A DNA stretch of 64,000 bases from Parvularculaceae bacterium (GTDB lineage: Bacteria; Pseudomonadota; Alphaproteobacteria; Caulobacterales; Parvularculaceae): NCBI GenBank assembly GCA_021776475.1, contig JAJFFV010000005.1, forward strand, positions 124,001 to 188,000. The letters are read 5' to 3'. The notes below the pieces were generated by a model. That model saw only the letters and a list, made by a program, of their open reading frames with translations, made no database searches and had not been told where the DNA came from. The translations under genes were made by a program, and so were the position numbers. Shown piece by piece: positions 24,629 to 34,588 of the stretch. How positions within the stretch are numbered: position 1 is the first letter of the stretch; every line of letters begins with the position of its first letter.

Positions 24629-25441
24629 CTAAATCTCGTAGCCCATGGCCTTAATTTCGGCTTTCAGCGAAGCAATACGAGTTGAATCAGCCGGGTGTGT
24701 CGATAGGAATTCTGGCGGGGCAGCGCCTGCTTGAGATTTTGCCTGCGCCATTTTGGTCCAGAACCGGACCGCTTCGCGCGGATCATAGCCAGCGCTCGGC
24801 ATGTAACGAAGGCCGACACGATCGGCTTCTGACTCATGGCTCCTCGAGAACGGCAGCAGGAAGCCAACCTGCGCGCCCACACCGAGCGCTTGTTGAATGG
24901 CTTGCGAGTTTTGCGGCGAGCGTGAATCGAGGATCGCACCGGCGGCGCTAAGCCCGAATTGTGTCGCGGCTGATTGTCCATAACGTTGACCGGAATGGTT
25001 CAGTTTCACATGCGCAACTTCATGACCCATGACCACGGCGATCTGGTCATCATTCTCCATCACATCGAGAATGCCGGTGTAGATGCCGATCTTGTTCCCT
25101 GGCAGGGCAAAAGCATTCAGCGACTTGTCATCAAACGTCACAACTTCCCACGCGGCCGGATTTTCACCGGCTGCCCGCAGCACTTTTAGAGCAACCCGAT
25201 TGACCCGGCTCGTGTAGCGCGGATCGGTAGATGCCCGTTGTTTCTGTTTCAGCTCGGCCCAGGCCGGACCTGCGGCCTGTGCCATTTGCGCCTGCGACGG
25301 CGTGAACGCGGTTGCAACCGTCGAGCATCCCGGCGCTAGCGCAATTGCCGTTCCACCAGCAAGACCGCGCAACAAATCGCGTCGGCTTAACGACGGCTGG
25401 TGTACTTCCTGATTTTCAGTCTCCTGATAACAACCACACAT
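24629..25441 (-). CDS. M48-family zinc metallopeptidase with Tat-like leader (downstream copy)
   Basis: 270 residues from the ATG at 25441, preceded by the strong AGGAGGTGGG ribosome site. About 16 residues of hydrophilic N-terminus (MCGCYQETENQE) precede SRRDLLRGLAGGTAIALAPGC, a twin-arginine motif with hydrophobic stretch and a possible but imperfect lipobox. The peptidase motif HEVAH and the third ligand in ESEADRVGLRY are present, as is the membrane-associated M48 pattern SLNAFALPGNKIGIYTGIL. It resembles periplasmic BepA/LoiP-type proteases in outer-membrane quality control. It follows a paralogue by 39 bases. Confidence 0.9.
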   Translation of the reverse strand: MCGCYQETENQEVHQPSLSRRDLLRGLAGGTAIALAPGCSTVATAFTPSQAQMAQAAGPAWAELKQKQRASTDPRYTSRVNRVALKVLRAAGENPAAWEVVTFDDKSLNAFALPGNKIGIYTGILDVMENDDQIAVVMGHEVAHVKLNHSGQRYGQSAATQFGLSAAGAILDSRSPQNSQAIQQALGVGAQVGFLLPFSRSHESEADRVGLRYMPSAGYDPREAVRFWTKMAQAKSQAGAAPPEFLSTHPADSTRIASLKAEIKAMGYEI

Positions 25442-25480
25442 GCGACCCACCTCCTGCTCTTTCCGGTACATTCGGGTGAG

Positions 25481-26410
25481 CTATACCCAGCCCTGACTTC
25501 TGATATAATTGCGCAGATTTTCTGCACGGTACAATGGATCAGGGTGCGTGGATAGCCAGCTTGGGCCACGCGACTGTGATGACTTTGCCATTTTCTGCCA
25601 CAGACTGACTGACTGCATCGGATCATAGCCACCGTTGTACATATACTTGGCACCCAGTGTATCAGCCTCAAGCTCATGACGACGCGAGTAAGGCAAGATG
25701 ACACCAAACATCAACCCGGCACCCAGCGCAGCTCCCAGCAGCTGCGTGTTGCGGCTGGCATTACGCTGACAATTATTTACGGCCGCCACTTCCTCGCGGG
25801 TGTAACCGCCGGGCGCGTAGGCTTCTTTCAACTCCTCGCATTTGCGGTTCATTTGCGACGCGCCGATCATTGTGCCACCTGCGACCGCGAGTTGGCCCGC
25901 CATTTGCTGACTGACCCGTTCAGCGGCATGGCGGCCGCTCACATGCCCAACTTCATGGCCCAGGATTGCACCGAGCTGATCGTCATTATCGACGAAGTCC
26001 ATCATGCCTTTGTAAAATCCGACCCGATTACCCGGCAACACGAAGGCGTTCTTTGTGTTCGAGTTAAACACGGCATACTCAAAGCGCTGGTCTGCGCGTC
26101 CGGCGCCTTTTGCGATGCGACTGCCCACAGATTCAAGTCGCCGATTGTAGGACGTGCCGTTGAGTGTCGGCTGTGATTTCTTCGATTCAGCCCATGAAGA
26201 CGCTGCCATCTGGGCAAGCTGACCATCCGAGACGAGGATTAGCTGGCTGGCGCCGGTTTCCGGGTTAGTTGAGCAACTTGTCAGCGCGGTTGGAATTGCC
26301 GCCATGACAGTGCCTGCCGCAAGCCCGCGCACCAGGTCCCGGCGCGACATCTGAACAATGTCCAAGCCCTTGATTTTACCTACAATTTTTCGATTTTCAC
26401 CGTCACACAT
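25481..26410 (-). CDS. M48-family zinc metallopeptidase with Tat-like leader (upstream copy)
   Basis: 309 residues from the ATG at 26410 (AGGAGGTGGGGCT upstream). A 25-residue hydrophilic start leads to MSRRDLVRGLAAGTVMAAI and the lipobox LTSC, so a Tat-exported lipoprotein is predicted. HEVGH is the zinc motif and HELEADTLGAKYMY carries the third ligand. An insertion with four cysteines in total (KCEELKEAY, NNCQRN among them) after the active site distinguishes it from its neighbour. The two genes share leader architecture and probably arose by tandem duplication. Confidence 0.9.
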   Translation of the reverse strand: MCDGENRKIVGKIKGLDIVQMSRRDLVRGLAAGTVMAAIPTALTSCSTNPETGASQLILVSDGQLAQMAASSWAESKKSQPTLNGTSYNRRLESVGSRIAKGAGRADQRFEYAVFNSNTKNAFVLPGNRVGFYKGMMDFVDNDDQLGAILGHEVGHVSGRHAAERVSQQMAGQLAVAGGTMIGASQMNRKCEELKEAYAPGGYTREEVAAVNNCQRNASRNTQLLGAALGAGLMFGVILPYSRRHELEADTLGAKYMYNGGYDPMQSVSLWQKMAKSSQSRGPSWLSTHPDPLYRAENLRNYIRSQGWV

Positions 26411-26530
26411 AGCCCCACCTCCTGATGCAGTCTCGCTGCATATGGTAACCATGTGGAGTATTCTTGCAAGACAATGGCGCGAAAATGGCCCGGTGATGGC
26501 AAAAGCCAGGTTAAAACCACAATATCGTGA

Positions 26531-29413
26531 TCAGGTTGACAGCGCTTCTTTCACCTTGGCCGCGACGACTTTCAGACTGAAGGGTTTCTGCAAATAGCCT
26601 GCGCCTTCGATGGCAGCGAGCTTTTCGCGCATTGCGCCTTCAGCATAACCTGACATGAAGATAATTTTACTGGCGCCGAGTTTTTCACCCGCCTCTTGAA
26701 TCAGTGTCGGTCCATCCATTTCCGGCATCATAATATCAGTCAACACAAGGTCGAACGGCTTTTCCTCATCCTGAATAATCTCAAGCGCTTCATCGCCATC
26801 GGTCGCTTCAACGATGTCGTACCCACACATCTGCAACGCCCTGACAATGATAGAGCGCGCGCCGTCCTCATCTTCAACGATCAGGATACGCCCCTTACCA
26901 GTTAAGTCTGCGGACTCACCTGGTTTTCTCGCAGCCTCTGCAGCGGCAACAGCAGCTTCGCGCTCAATTTCTTCTGCATCCATCTGGTAGGCGGGCAGGA
27001 AGATGCGGAATGTTGCCCCTTCTCCTGGTCGGTTATCTAGAAATATACGACCGCCCATCTGACCGATAATACCGTACACGGTTGAAAGACCAAGTCCCGT
27101 ACCCTTGCCCTCTCCTTTTGTCGTGAAAAACGGCTCGAAGATCTTGTCAGCTATTTCCGGCGGCACACCGCTGCCTGAATCAGCAACTTCAATGAGAACG
27201 TGATCCATCGCATCCAGAACCGCATAACCGTAATTCACGACATCATCTGCATCGATCAGCTTGGTTTCGATCGTCAGTTCTCCACCATCCGGCATCGCAT
27301 CGCGCGCATTTACGGCGAGGTTCATAATGGCGAGCTCCAATTGTCCCTTGTCAGCTTTGACCTTGGGCAAGCCCCGACCGTTGACAACGTTTAAGTCAAC
27401 GCGTTCGGTGAGCGATCGGTTGAGGAACGGTGAGAAATCCCGCAACAAATCAGTAATTGACAAGATTTCGGAACGCAGGGTTTGCTTTCTAGAAAACGCT
27501 AGAAGATTGCTGGTGAGGTTCTTCGCGCGCTGGGCATTCTGCTGGATAAGAACAAGATCAGGATAAGACGGATCGCCAGCCGCATGCCGGCGCGTTAGGA
27601 ATTCGCATGACCCCATGATCACCAACAAAAGGTTGTTGAAATCATGCGCGATACTGCCCGCCAGATGACCGATTGTCTTGAGCTTCTGATCCTGCGAATA
27701 GTCTTCTTCCATCCGTTTCTGGAATGAAACGTCCACTGAATAAAGAACAGTCTGTCGCTTGCCGTAGCTGCCGCGGCGGCGCTTCACCGGCCGTGCATGG
27801 AGGTGCATGATCTTGGCCGATTGACCTTCACCGAGATGCACTTCGACCGGGCGCGCCAGTAGGGAATTGGCGCTGCGATTCTTGATCGCGGAGGCAAGAT
27901 CCTTGATGACTTTTTCTTCGAAGCATTTCGACATGATCGGTGTGTTGCCGCTGATGCCAAAAATCTCAGTGAAAACTTTGTTTGCATCTGCAATCTTCGC
28001 GTCGGAGCCAATGTCCCCTTCGATCACGGCAACACCAAATGGCGCCTCACTTGCGTCACCCAGCAGAGAATCGGCTGCTTCACTCGGCGCGACTTGCAAC
28101 TCCGGTTGCAGCTCAACACAAACGAACCCCTCACCCACACCACCGCGTGAAAATGGTGTCAGTTGCACATCCATGCCGCCGCCACTGCGGCGACGCATAC
28201 GTGCATCAATCGGTGCAAGTTCTTCCTCCCATAGGCCAGCGACAAGTTCATCGGTTTCTCCCAAGATGAAGTCGCCGAGGTCCAAAGAGTTCGTCAAAGT
28301 GCCAACCCATTCTGCCAGGGCCTCATTATACCAGGCAATCCGGCCCGATCGTTCAAGACCAAAAACTGGCCGGGGGTATTTTGCATATGCGGTCGAGAGG
28401 GCATCAACGATGTCCTCCACTTCCTGCTCGCGCAGGCGCCATGCGATGTGTTGGCCATTGTCGCGCATTGGGCGCAGGGAAACTTCAAAACGTCGCAATT
28501 TCGTTGCGCCATTTCCGCTGCCCATCATCTGGGTAATGATTTCTTCTGTTGCCACACCGCTTTTGGCTGCGCGGCATAGATGAAAGACTTTCCGGGACTC
28601 CGAGCCCGACTGAGCAAACAGCCGGTCCATACGGGGAGGCAAGCCTGACGGACCGGAAATACCTGCATCTTTCGCCATCTGTTGATAGGCATCATTTGCA
28701 TAAACAACGACACCGTCTTTTGTCGTGACAAGCCGGGCGTCGATATCAACGTTGAGAATATCCTCAGCAATGCCAAGGGGTTGCAGAATATCACGGCCAG
28801 CAAGCTCAACGGCATCCATCTTGTTATGACCAGTTGCGCGGTGCATCATGAAACCAGTTAACATCATCGGTGAAAACGACTTGGTGGCAGCGCCGAGCAC
28901 GAACAGACTGATCAGCAGCGTAAGCCCGCCAACCAGTATCAACCACGGGATACCGGAGGCAACGCCAACTATCAGGGCGTAGCCAATGCTGGCAACGACA
29001 CAGGCCATAGAACTCCAGATGACCCATGGCGCGATTTGCGCCAACAGGCTTTCAGTGCTCAGCGCATCGAGCGCCTCACCGTTTGGATCGTCCAGAGGAG
29101 CAGATTTTTTTTCTTTTTTTTGGGCATGCGGGCCAATTTGTTGCGCCGCGGTTTTCGCCGCATCCAGCTGAGCCAGGATGTCCTGGGGTGAGGCAATTTT
29201 CGGTGGCGCAGGTAAAGGCGCGGGTCCGGGCTCGTTGGCTTCAAACGCGGCATCAAAACTCTCATCAACGGGTCCGATGGCAGCGGCTGCAAGATCGGAT
29301 GATTGCAGAGCATCCTCGAAATCATCGTCAAAGGATTCTGGCGCCACCCTCAGTCCTTCCGTGATGCTTTCCAGCGACACTTTTTGAGATGGGTTTTTGA
29401 GGCTGTTTTGCAT
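26531..29413 (-). CDS. cckA: Cell-cycle hybrid histidine kinase CckA
   Basis: 960 residues. A 125-residue acidic, Pro/Ala-rich region precedes two membrane helices (about 128-150 and 155-175). PAS-like modules follow to about 560. The phospho-accepting His590 lies in [14 protein letters not shown], the exact CckA-type H-box. An HATPase domain ([28 protein letters not shown]) and a C-terminal receiver (842-960, Asp893 in [12 protein letters not shown]) complete it. CckA feeds phosphate through ChpT to CtrA and controls division or motility in alphaproteobacteria. The N-terminal extension before the membrane helices is longer than in Caulobacter. It stands alone between the M48 pair and the ybjQ operon. 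Confidence 0.93.
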
Positions 29414-29925: not shown

Positions 29926-30348
29926 CTAAAATATGCCGAGAAACTTCTTGCGTTTATCCCGGCCCTTCCCGGCCTGATACTGATGCGAAACATTCAGATA
30001 GTCCATCTCTCGACGAACCGTCAGGTTCTCTGTGGTTTTCAGGTCCTGCGTCAACTTGTCCTGTTCCATCACGGGTACGGACAAGTCCTGCTGGCGGTTT
30101 TGAACCTTGCCCTTTTTGTCAAAGCTGGTGAGACGCTCGCGCAGCGCGGCAAAAGCAGCTTCGGCAGGCTCGGTCACACCCTCCGGCATCGGCACGGATG
30201 CGGCTTCGTGGGCGTTTTCTAAGAGCGAACGATGGCGCTCCATTTCTTCAGTCACCGGCCGCGGAATATTATCAACGCCGGACCCAGTCAGGTTTCGGCT
30301 CGTTGATTCTTCAAACCGGCTCCAGATTTCTTTCAGGTGGTCAGTCAT
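29926..30348 (-). CDS. Hypothetical charged protein, middle gene of the Ntn-like operon
   Basis: 140 residues, rich in Glu, Arg and Lys, predicted mostly helical, with no membrane segment or signal peptide. Not recognised. A proline-containing loop (GVDNIPRPVTEEMERHRSLL) and a basic C-terminus (GKGRDKRKKFLGIF) are the main features. It starts three bases after the stop of the proteasome-like gene and ends 11 bases before ybjQ, so it is translated with them. A partner or adaptor of the upstream protein is possible but only from position. Confidence 0.75.
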   Translation of the reverse strand: MTDHLKEIWSRFEESTSRNLTGSGVDNIPRPVTEEMERHRSLLENAHEAASVPMPEGVTEPAEAAFAALRERLTSFDKKGKVQNRQQDLSVPVMEQDKLTQDLKTTENLTVRREMDYLNVSHQYQAGKGRDKRKKFLGIF

Positions 30349-30351
30349 CGT

Positions 30352-31635
30352 TTACATCTCCGGCTTTTCTTTTTTCCATTCAAGACCGCCATTGCGCGTG
30401 ATCACCGCGACATCAATCGGGCCGCCGACAGTTTCAATGGAATTCATCACCTTCTGCTGGAAGGAGTTGAGTTTGATCAGGCTCGCCGCGGTCTCGCCAA
30501 GCTCTTTCTTTGGCAGGGTCTGAATGGCACGATAAATCGGCAGGGTATGGACCGCGTATTGGTACTGATCAATTGACCCAAAAAATTCCCGCAGGGCATA
30601 GCCGAGGTTATTTTCGGAGTAATCCTGCCACAGGGTCTGACGCTGTTCGTCCGAGAGGCCTGGTGCCCGGCCAATAAGGTCGGTTGCCATGTTGACCGAC
30701 AGTTTGAGCGTTTCACCGAACATGAAGTGCCGCAAATAGGTATCCATGCCGGTGAGGAAAGTACGGATCATCCGGTCTTGCGCAAAGGGCTGCACCACTG
30801 GCCCAGTATCGGACTTCATGTCGGCCGCCCGGTCCTGGCGATGTTTCAAAAGTCCCAATACGACAGAAGAAGTGAGATAAGAGCGCATTGACGGGAATTT
30901 GTCCTGACGCCCAAAACCAGCAAAGACGACGCCGGTATAATGCTCAAAGAATGCATCCTTCGTCACCGAGAACACGGCAACATCATGCAGCCTGCTGCGC
31001 GTCGTGTCAGACACCGTCAAAGTCGGGTGATCCTGTTTCAAAGAGCCGACTAGTGAGTCAACCAACTGACCGATTTCATCCTTGTACCGCCGGCGGACCT
31101 GCTCGGTCATGCCTGACGGGAAACAGTCGAGTTCACCGCGCGGGCTGTCATCAAGGCTCTTGTCATAGTCATTCAATAGCTGATCAACCACAAACTCGAA
31201 AATCGAGCTGACATGGTCGCGCACGCGCCCAGCCTGCGCGTCGCGGAATTTTAGGACCTGATGATCGAAATCCTGCGCCAAAATCGTAAAAATCACCGCG
31301 ATATGTTTGAAGAACTCTGTATCTTGATGATCCGCCGGGAAAAGTTCCGGATTGCCGGAAATGAAATTCATGAAATCCTGCGCGTAACCATCAACCGTAT
31401 CGAAACTTTTGCCCCCTGCCTGTTCCCGATACAGGGAGATTACCGTCTCCCAGGGCACCGACATGATCTCGGCATTGTTGTAGATCATCACCGCAACCGG
31501 CTGTCCATCGATCAGCGGGAACAGTTTGTCCACCGACTGATAGGTTTTCAGATAGTTGGCACCGCTGATCGTGACCGCGCTATCTGCGGCCATGGCGACT
31601 GACTGTCTGTTCATTAACACGACTTCTGACGTCAT
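30352..31635 (-). CDS. Large protein with a proteasome-like Ntn-hydrolase N-terminus
   Basis: 427 residues from the ATG at 31635, which places Thr directly after the initiator Met. The first 60 residues follow the 20S proteasome beta pattern: T-S-E-V-V-L, then SVAMAADSAVT, then YQSVDKLFPLIDG and PVAVMIYNNAEI. Counting from Thr1, the Asp of AADS is residue 17 and the Lys of VDKLF is residue 36, close to the Thr1/Asp17/Lys33 catalytic set. Proteasome and HslV subunits are 170-250 residues; here about 250 extra residues follow that I do not recognise (FPSMRSYLTSSVVLGLL, QPFAQDRMIRTFLTGMD among them). Release of Met would expose Thr as nucleophile. Activity is inferred. It leads an operon with a hypothetical gene and ybjQ. 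Confidence 0.75.
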   Translation of the reverse strand: MTSEVVLMNRQSVAMAADSAVTISGANYLKTYQSVDKLFPLIDGQPVAVMIYNNAEIMSVPWETVISLYREQAGGKSFDTVDGYAQDFMNFISGNPELFPADHQDTEFFKHIAVIFTILAQDFDHQVLKFRDAQAGRVRDHVSSIFEFVVDQLLNDYDKSLDDSPRGELDCFPSGMTEQVRRRYKDEIGQLVDSLVGSLKQDHPTLTVSDTTRSRLHDVAVFSVTKDAFFEHYTGVVFAGFGRQDKFPSMRSYLTSSVVLGLLKHRQDRAADMKSDTGPVVQPFAQDRMIRTFLTGMDTYLRHFMFGETLKLSVNMATDLIGRAPGLSDEQRQTLWQDYSENNLGYALREFFGSIDQYQYAVHTLPIYRAIQTLPKKELGETAASLIKLNSFQQKVMNSIETVGGPIDVAVITRNGGLEWKKEKPEM

Positions 31636-32461: not shown

Positions 32462-32659
32462 GCGCGAACAGCTGGCAGGTCACGGTATGGACAACACCTT
32501 GCGCCTCTGATTTTGTGCTCGCCCTGATCAACGCCGCTGCTGGGATCACTCTGACAGAGGAGCGTTCTATCCGATCAACCCGGGCGATCTGACGACATTT
32601 CCAGCCTTGGCAATCATCTGATCTTATTGGATACTGACCAAAGCCATTGGGGGGAGCGG

Positions 32660-34588
32660 ATGCCCAACTTTTTCACAGAACTTCAACGGCGCCATGTTGT
32701 CCGGATTGCGGGGCTTTACCTGGTTGTCGGCTGGGTCATCATGCAAGTGGTTGAGGTGATGTCACCAGCGCTCGGTCTGCCGGACTGGACCAACTCTATG
32801 GTCGCAATGCTGCTGATTATCGGTTTTCCGGTCACTGTTTTGTTTGCCTGGGCGTTTCAAGTAACGCCGGAAGGGCTGAAACGGACCGTGGCGGCGTCCA
32901 CACAAGCCAGTACAGACGAGCGGCGTTGGATCGACTATGTCATCGTTGCCGGGTTCGTTCTTGTTGCGGTGATGATTATTGCAGACCGGTTTGCGGCAAA
33001 TCCACCACAAATGCAGCAAGCTAATAGCGAGCCTAATGTCGGCAACATTGCTTCAGATGGCATACAAATCGCGAGGAACGCGGCGGCTGATGTCGAGAAG
33101 CCGGAACAGGTCTCGATCGCCGTACTGCCGTTCGTCAATATGTCTTCCAACCCGGAGCAAGAATATTTTTCCGATGGAGTCACAGAAGAAATTTTGCACG
33201 CACTAGTCCGTGTACCAAATTTACGGGTCGCCGGGCGCCGTTCCTCTTTCTCTTTCAAGGGTCAGAACAAGGGTCCGCAAGAGATTGCCACGGCTCTTGG
33301 TGTTACACATCTTCTCGATGGATCTGTGCGCCGGCAGAACGGGTCAGTGCGGATTGCCACGCAATTGGTGCGTGCCGCAGACGGCGTTCAGATATGGGCT
33401 GAGACTTATGACGGGTCGATCAAGGACATATTTGATCTGCAGGATACGATTGCGAACACGGTAACGACCAAACTGGAGGTAATATTCAACCGAGATGCCA
33501 TGCCGCGCCTGGCTGTTCAAATGACGGACAATGCACAGGCCTACGAACATTTTTTGCAGGGCCGCGCCTTGTTTTTGCAACGCTGGGGTTACGGCGCAAT
33601 TGCAAAAGCAACTGAGCACCTCGAAGACGCCGTTGCGCTTGACCCTGAATTTGCCGAGGCGTGGTCACTTCTTGGGTTTGTCTACTATCTGTCACCTCTT
33701 TATGTGCCAAATACTGATCCTGATCTCGCTCTGATCAAAGCTGACGAAGCTGTTCTGAAGGCACGCGCGCTCAAACCATCCCTCGCTGAAGCGTTGTCAA
33801 CGCTCTCGGCAATTGAGTTCAGTCGTAACAACAATCTTGAATCGAGAAAATTGATTGAGCAAGCCATCGCTCTTGAGCCTTTTAATGCCCTAGTTGCCAA
33901 TGACCACGGCTTGCGGGCTGCTCTAATGGGGCAAACTGCAACGGCCATGCAAAGCCTGGAGCTAGCCGTCAAGCTAGATCCCGTTCACAGCTATGCGGTC
34001 GCCAACCTTGCCTATGTAAAACTTGATGCAGGCCTCCTTGATGAGGCAGAAGCGCTGGCGCAACGTGCCATTGATCTTGGTGATGTGTCCGCCTACGAAA
34101 CATTGTCGAGGATCGCCTTCGCGCAGGGTGATCGCGAGGCTGCCTCTCGCCATCTGTTTCAAATCTATGAACTGGCAGGTGATCAGCTTGCACCACAATT
34201 TGCCGATCGACGAATCTGGGAGGCGGGGGCGCGGGCTTTCTATGAAGACAGTGAACCGGATCGCCTGGCCCTGATCGGCCTCGCCGAGGCCTATCTGGCC
34301 TCACCTGATGCGGTCGTGAACTCAGCTATCTTTAATATACTGGCGCGAACCGGTTCTGCTGAACTATTATTTGAGACCTACCAGGAAGGCTTAATTGGCA
34401 AGGATATGGCTCTTCGTGACTTGTGGGGACCTTCCGGGCCCGGGAGAAAGGTTCGGCAACATCCGGATTTCCCGGCATTTGCAGAGCGCATTGGCATGGC
34501 CGATGTTTGGCGCCTTTATGGCTGGCCTGACCAGTGCAAACCGACGACCGGTACGGATGGCACTGGTGGCCAGTTTGAGTGTTTGTGA
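32660..34588 (+). CDS. Membrane-anchored TolB-like/TPR protein
   Basis: 642 residues from the ATG at 32660, with GGGGGGAGCGG just upstream. The N-terminus (MPNFFTELQRRHVVRIAGLY) leads into three hydrophobic segments at about 15-35, 45-65 and 98-118. A TolB/FlgO-like domain follows at about 155-290 (VSIAVLPFVNMSSNPEQEYF, DGVTEEILHALVRVPNLRVA, GVTHLLDGSVRR). The rest is tetratricopeptide helices (AIAKATEHLEDAVALDPEFA, ALAQRAIDLGDVSAYETLSR). Many proteobacterial relatives carry an N-terminal cyclase or DNA-binding domain instead of membrane helices; none is present here. Function unknown, probably a membrane scaffold. A truncated paralogue precedes it. Confidence 0.88.
   Translation: MPNFFTELQRRHVVRIAGLYLVVGWVIMQVVEVMSPALGLPDWTNSMVAMLLIIGFPVTVLFAWAFQVTPEGLKRTVAASTQASTDERRWIDYVIVAGFVLVAVMIIADRFAANPPQMQQANSEPNVGNIASDGIQIARNAAADVEKPEQVSIAVLPFVNMSSNPEQEYFSDGVTEEILHALVRVPNLRVAGRRSSFSFKGQNKGPQEIATALGVTHLLDGSVRRQNGSVRIATQLVRAADGVQIWAETYDGSIKDIFDLQDTIANTVTTKLEVIFNRDAMPRLAVQMTDNAQAYEHFLQGRALFLQRWGYGAIAKATEHLEDAVALDPEFAEAWSLLGFVYYLSPLYVPNTDPDLALIKADEAVLKARALKPSLAEALSTLSAIEFSRNNNLESRKLIEQAIALEPFNALVANDHGLRAALMGQTATAMQSLELAVKLDPVHSYAVANLAYVKLDAGLLDEAEALAQRAIDLGDVSAYETLSRIAFAQGDREAASRHLFQIYELAGDQLAPQFADRRIWEAGARAFYEDSEPDRLALIGLAEAYLASPDAVVNSAIFNILARTGSAELLFETYQEGLIGKDMALRDLWGPSGPGRKVRQHPDFPAFAERIGMADVWRLYGWPDQCKPTTGTDGTGGQFECL

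Follow-up and report, generated by a model that had tools for sequence, protein, structure and literature searches.

Many widespread homologues of the proteasome, beyond HslV and the 20S particle, have no known function. A reading frame in a 64,000-nt window of a Parvularculaceae genome (the whole stretch analysed here, from GenBank assembly GCA_021776475.1, contig JAJFFV010000005.1) raises the question of what one such protein is and what it might do. Its 427-residue product was originally predicted to be a diverged Ntn hydrolase carrying a single insertion or extra domain of about 250 residues, outside the known HslV, Anbu and BPH types. Here we ask whether sequence conservation, modelled fold and genomic setting bear this out, and what they suggest about function. 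The features on which the argument rests are listed below, with positions counted from the first letter of the window.

30352..31635, minus strand: gene for the proteasome-like Ntn hydrolase (PHROG 5990), 427 aa, identified by open reading frame scan, PHROG match, structure model and fold search.
31630..31632, minus strand: codon of Thr2, the predicted nucleophile after Met removal (equivalent to proteasome Thr1), in 141/141 homologues.
31582..31584, minus strand: codon of Asp18, in AADS (equivalent to proteasome Asp17), in 141/141 homologues.
31525..31527, minus strand: codon of Lys37, in VDKLF, mature residue 36 (equivalent to proteasome Lys33), in 141/141 homologues.
31021..31353, minus strand: first helical insertion, approximately residues 95-205, separating the early strands from strand GVVFAGFG (model helices 101-133, 135-158 and 176-202; boundaries estimated).
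30517..30669, minus strand: second helical insertion, approximately residues 323-373, between the presumed H3 and H4 (model helix 329-373; boundaries estimated).
30409..30435, minus strand: ETVGGPIDV motif, before the next-to-last strand (V403 in 140/141 and G404 in 138/141 homologues).
29926..30348, minus strand: partner gene, 140 aa, starting 3 nt past the enzyme's stop codon and identified by its co-occurrence with the enzyme in genomes of the family.
29929..29949, minus strand: C-terminal tail KKFLGIF of the partner (41/46 partners end in [FL]G[ILV][FL]).

The N-terminal residues of the enzyme, MTSEVVLMNRQSVAMAADSAVT, place a threonine directly after the methionine encoded by the ATG at 31635, and Asp17 and Lys36 of the mature protein follow at proteasome spacing, confirming the predicted positions. 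A TTG lies 18 nt upstream of this ATG and its use would extend the reading frame. Because Met-Thr is constant across the homologues and the residues preceding it are variable, the ATG is likely the start codon. The residue before the threonine in the homologues is the methionine or start-codon residue, and the propeptide of most beta subunits is not present. Methionine aminopeptidase would be expected to remove Met1 and expose Thr2, the predicted nucleophile acting with Asp18 and Lys37.

Thr2, Asn9, Asp18, Lys37, Gly235 and Gly240 are each found in all of the 141 distinct homologues compiled (50 close copies from the family itself, 72 from phage and viral contigs, 4 from plasmids and 15 others), a count to be read with the proviso that extraction searched for MT...D, so that Thr2 and Asp18, though not Lys37, were presupposed. 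Among homologues with less than 70% identity, Thr2, Asp18 and Lys37 are each kept in 68/68, so a chance motif can be ruled out, and the loss of these residues among homologues, which would have spoken against the original prediction, was not encountered. The examination covered 80 of 162 viral relatives and 7 of 13 phage records, and the extraction script missed L043, L049, the second piece of L100, seven further loci and L181. L043, which has a masked stretch, and L100, which is split into two frames, were omitted; L049 and the seven further loci were added to the set later and contain all three residues, as do L181 (by inspection) and plasmid copies L250-L253, which lie outside the 141. Wherever the rows dropped by extraction are readable, the catalytic residues are present. 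The ETVGGPIDV motif presumably occupies the position of the D166..SGG segment of proteasome beta subunits, two of which align below threshold over this region (profile positions 392-407).

An AlphaFold model of the enzyme, built from an alignment of 52 sequences, has a mean pLDDT of 87.4 and a pTM of 0.83. Searching the PDB with this model using Foldseek returned 48 chains at E ≤ 0.001, all of them proteasome entries, with 20S proteasome chains as best matches (best E 4.0e-5); a fold lacking the four-layer sandwich was not seen. The target-normalised TM-score of these matches is about 0.5 and their rmsd is large, because of the big insertions. In a search of a viral library, the second match for the enzyme is named proteasome beta subunit. 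On our reading of the model, helices 101-202 and 329-373 would be additions to the proteasome core, which agrees roughly with the predicted total of about 250 extra residues but distributes them over two places instead of a single insertion or domain. In a PDB profile search with the family profile, a coiled-coil chimera (E 0.0065) ranks ahead of the proteasome subunits, which appear only from E 0.3 upwards. The weak match to yeast PRE3 pairs three segments in matching order (N-terminus, strand preceding GFG, and segment FAQ...F..G) and aligns the PRE3 helix preceding that strand with the last helix before the strand in the enzyme. If this pairing holds, the first insertion would fall between H1 and H2, not after H2.

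Known families cover the protein sparsely. PHROG 5990 matches residues 1-424 (E 1e-76), but its function is unknown and no proteasome link is named for it. Pfam, NCBIfam and PADLOC searches with the enzyme yielded weak unrelated matches or none, with no match to PF00227, and PADLOC searches with the enzyme and nine homologues gave only matches at E above 0.004. Weak sub-threshold matches to PF00227, HslV-type and archaeal-proteasome families occur over the N-terminus of distant homologues, and in NCBIfam two of these weakly match proteasome and HslV entries; the sole PF00227 match in this genome is at another locus. The enzyme resembles HslV in its proteasome-type fold and in its N-terminal threonine with Asp17 and Lys33 equivalents, but the HslV-like proteins of relatives are about 175 aa long and start with TTIL, and a profile of 52 homologues did not match the HslV profile (probability 0.4%). 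With no HslV match in Pfam or NCBIfam either, we rejected the reading of the enzyme as HslV in disguise. Anbu and BPH were set aside on the missing Pfam match, the profile comparison having covered HslV. Subunits of the 20S proteasome are the best structural matches, but the enzyme has two large insertions and no propeptide. As far as these comparisons reach, then, the predicted placement outside HslV, Anbu and BPH stands, with no PF00227 match, 20S chains in the fold search and all three residues kept.

The wider claim that the protein lies outside all known types is probably wrong. Fuchs, Alva and Lupas (2021) described 22 new proteasome homologues, among them PMI-4, where PMI denotes Proteasome homolog with Multiple Insertions (PMC8665760). 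According to that paper, PMI-3 and PMI-4 share an insertion after H1/H2 and another between H3 and H4, and of the two PMI-4 alone is numerous, with 501 sequences at 90% identity, as well as broadly distributed and found in phages. The enzyme likewise has the proteasome-type catalytic set, together with additional segments both in the region of H1/H2 and between H3 and H4, and its relatives occur in hosts from Pseudomonadota, Bacillota and Bacteroidota and in phages, satellites and plasmids, much as PMI-4 spans many bacterial phyla and phages. From these two insertions and the abundance, breadth and phage occurrence of PMI-4, the enzyme is probably PMI-4, an assignment made by comparison with the published description rather than with PMI-4 sequences. 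The insertion between H3 and H4 is found in the model as helix 329-373. For the long insertion after H1/H2, helices 101-202 are extra in the corresponding region, but the PRE3 alignment would place them between H1 and H2, which weakens the label. Connectase, a proteasome-like protein ligase, also has a helical insertion, described as two helices between S3 and S4 in a protein lacking H1/H2 (PMC8665760); the model of the enzyme, in contrast, has no helix between the third and fourth strands, and its helices come after the fifth or sixth. As a protein, then, the enzyme is probably not new. A literature search limited to open papers found no experimental work on the PMI-4-like group.

What is new in this analysis is a two-gene unit, an arrangement that none of the searched papers was found to describe. 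The 2021 study reports no genomic context pointing to a specific function for the proteasome homologues (PMC8665760), whereas the enzyme analysed here has a partner gene beside it, which did not figure in the original prediction. A close copy of the enzyme occurs in 56/60 genomes of the family (this genome included, and G054 as fragments), and the partner is present in the same 56; a search of 40 other related genomes found no partner. Both genes are absent from G021, which is 66% complete, and from G029, G034 and G037, which are 98-100% complete. Because the latter three are near-complete, the pair is dispensable and can be lost. A wider operon was considered and rejected: a YbjQ gene lies near the enzyme in 18/47 close loci and a CckA-like kinase in 9/47, some loci being short, so the regular unit consists of two genes. 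In the window, a CckA-like hybrid histidine kinase is encoded at 26531-29413, downstream of the pair and of the YbjQ gene, in an order kept in some relatives only.

Ten positions are the same in all 45 aligned partners (I8, W9, F12, L20, P31, P61, A65, T106, R112 and Y117) and four more are nearly invariant (K134, K135, G138 and F140); one of the five partners without the [FL]G[ILV][FL] end, L011, reaches the end of its contig without a stop codon. Residues 125-140 carry a net charge of +5 and end in FLGIF. In G087, G091 and G095, three genomes from a different family of the order, the downstream gene has an unlike body but ends in a similar way, with tails RRKFLGIF, KRKLFGLF and RKKFLGLF. No paralogue of the partner was found in this genome at E ≤ 1, and its structure model is poor (pTM 0.30). 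The codon pattern of KKFLGIF, searched with AAR lysine codons, has one exact match in the genome, which is the partner itself; the 36 places with one or two mismatches, compared with 52 in a backward control, were taken as noise and not as further tail-bearing proteins. The tail recalls the docking tails of activators of the proteasome family, but it is not the C-terminal hydrophobic-Tyr-X (HbYX) motif, as FLGIF contains no tyrosine. HslU is reported to lack HbYX and yet to bind HslV through its C-terminus (PMC11475706).

Small genes also follow the enzyme in distant homologues. Within a set of 100 homologues, 58 are less than 70% identical, and for 52 of them the sequence extends 300 nt or more downstream; 42/52 are directly followed by an ORF of 35-85 aa, compared with 70/411 control genes taken from the same loci (Fisher p 3e-20), where the ORF had to begin with ATG between -30 and +40 nt from the stop codon with no longer ORF there. 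Six of the remaining ten are followed by a longer ORF and four by none, and L097, L105, L116 and L177 have no downstream ORF of this kind. The small proteins fall into several unlike groups, nine partners (seven of them small) scanned against PHROG shared no family, and the partners in phages lack the KKFLGIF-type tail.

Enzyme genes are unevenly distributed. Scans yielded 48 genome loci, of which 47 are close (66-89% identity) and one, L049, is distant (32%). In a set of 100 related genomes, 63 have a match, this one included. Across the phylum the enzyme is sparse (10/398 genomes, again counting this one), compared with 56/60 in Parvularculaceae. Relatives were found in 10 plasmid and 13 phage records, and an alignment-based scan of IMG/VR gave 162, of which 80 were kept; an initial viral scan with the single enzyme sequence had found nothing. 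A tree of 72 rows, obtained by thinning 125 rows at 75% identity, rooted at the midpoint and drawn largely from viral collections, groups the common copies of the family (five rows) in one clade with support 100/100, a stem of 0.99 and short inner branches. L049, on a long branch, and a Mesorhizobium plasmid copy lie nearest to this clade, and most other rows derive from phages. Phage-type divergent copies in Parvularculaceae (L082 in G031 and L084 in G037) sit elsewhere in the tree; G031 has both a close and a phage-type copy, and G037 has no close one. This topology fits a single capture in Parvularculaceae followed by vertical keeping.

Copies in phages and satellites occupy cargo-like positions. 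In two Streptococcus satellites the enzyme gene sits close to the end and in a third it is followed by seven genes, and in phages it appears as the last gene after the lysin, on the opposite strand beside the holin, or between methylase and holin genes. Among 76 nearest neighbours at 40 viral loci, the commonest PHROG families are transcriptional repressors or regulators (the CI-type repressor family phrog_4 accounts for 8/76), then Q-type antiterminators, with endolysins also present. Flanking genes on the opposite strand (27/74 versus 73/307, p 0.04) were judged too weak to use as evidence of cargo status. Of eight loci outside the common copies, three (L083, L096 and L099) have defence-type neighbours by direct scan, a count from few loci with a small control, and PADLOC matches can be general ATPases, as at L083; in six Parvularculaceae loci, none of the 61 neighbours matched PADLOC. 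An Enterococcus plasmid carries a PD-Lambda-1 homologue about 5 kb from the enzyme, and a Ruegeria plasmid a PDC-S51 homologue 2 kb from it. Two further E1-E2 matches are attributed to the ThiF proteins at L097 and L100. Plasmid copies in Rhizobium and Mesorhizobium lie 1-2 kb from multiubiquitin/ThiF genes. At L100, L250 and L251, on Rhizobium plasmids, multiubiquitin, ThiF, DUF6527 or a similar gene and ClpP-like genes stand in a row at this distance from the enzyme.

Residue conservation, the modelled fold, the pairing and the spread are what the data show; catalysis, docking and a role in defence are inferred. We consider it likely, well short of certain, that the locus encodes a catalytically competent proteasome-like Ntn hydrolase, likely a protease and probably PMI-4, together with a small partner that most likely docks on it and switches or directs it, that mobile copies are plausibly protective, and that the pair was captured once in Parvularculaceae. 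Because the helical insertions lie close to the elements that build the ring contacts of the 20S proteasome, the assembly would probably be unlike a plain double ring. From its position, size and conserved ends, the partner would most likely act by docking, as an activator or an inhibitor. On phages, satellites and plasmids the pair would be accessory cargo, plausibly protecting the carrier cell, and in Parvularculaceae it would seemingly have become a nearly universal chromosomal pair after one capture. A more specific version, in which a self-contained threonine protease gated by a tiny co-encoded activator docking through its C-terminus forms a minimal proteasome-like defence system, spread by phages and satellites and acting beside ubiquitin-like tagging genes (multiubiquitin, ThiF, DUF6527) on rhizobial plasmids, strikes us as distinctly unlikely. 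The ubiquitin-like neighbours come from two lineages (three Rhizobium plasmid loci fetched and one Mesorhizobium plasmid), so that co-location in islands explains them equally well.

Adjacency of a large gene and a small variable one, often on mobile elements, together with RelBE and Xre-RES genes in two neighbourhoods, would also suit a toxin-antitoxin module in which the enzyme is harmful when freed by infection or loss of the element and the small partner is its inhibitor. We hold this to be unlikely: the antitoxin gene often comes first in typical pairs, whereas the small gene is second here, and retention in 56/60 family genomes, together with the conservation of the partner ends, points to a positive role. 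Cleavage of a phage repressor or other lysogeny regulator by prophage-borne copies, as performed by ImmA-type metalloproteases in other elements, would account for the repressor and regulator families that predominate among nearest neighbours, but it appears highly unlikely given that other copies adjoin lysis, head or tail genes or sit in satellites and on plasmids.

Two further readings concern the tail itself. The net charge of residues 125-140 and the terminal FLGIF could mark a membrane anchor, a basic stretch and hydrophobic residues holding the enzyme at the membrane, an idea we regard as improbable, since the pattern hardly varies and stops precisely at the C-terminus, like docking tails, although this is not decisive. 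The conserved C-terminus could instead be the substrate or tag of an enzyme acting as a ligase or amidase on one substrate, for which connectase is a precedent (PMC8665760). This seems quite unlikely, because the insertion site differs from the S3-S4 insertion of connectase, which lacks H1/H2, and phage partners do not have the tail. The regular partner gene offers a concrete experimental handle on the PMI-4-like group. If mobile copies do defend cells, they would add a proteasome-like effector to bacterial immunity, and Parvularculaceae would be a case of a defence effector turned standard cell component.

Elsewhere in the window, the genes of two M48 metallopeptidases lie side by side at 24629-26452, both products matching a TAT signal weakly, and a TPR protein with a TTG start at 32627-34588 has a middle part weakly similar to HilA/CadC regulators.
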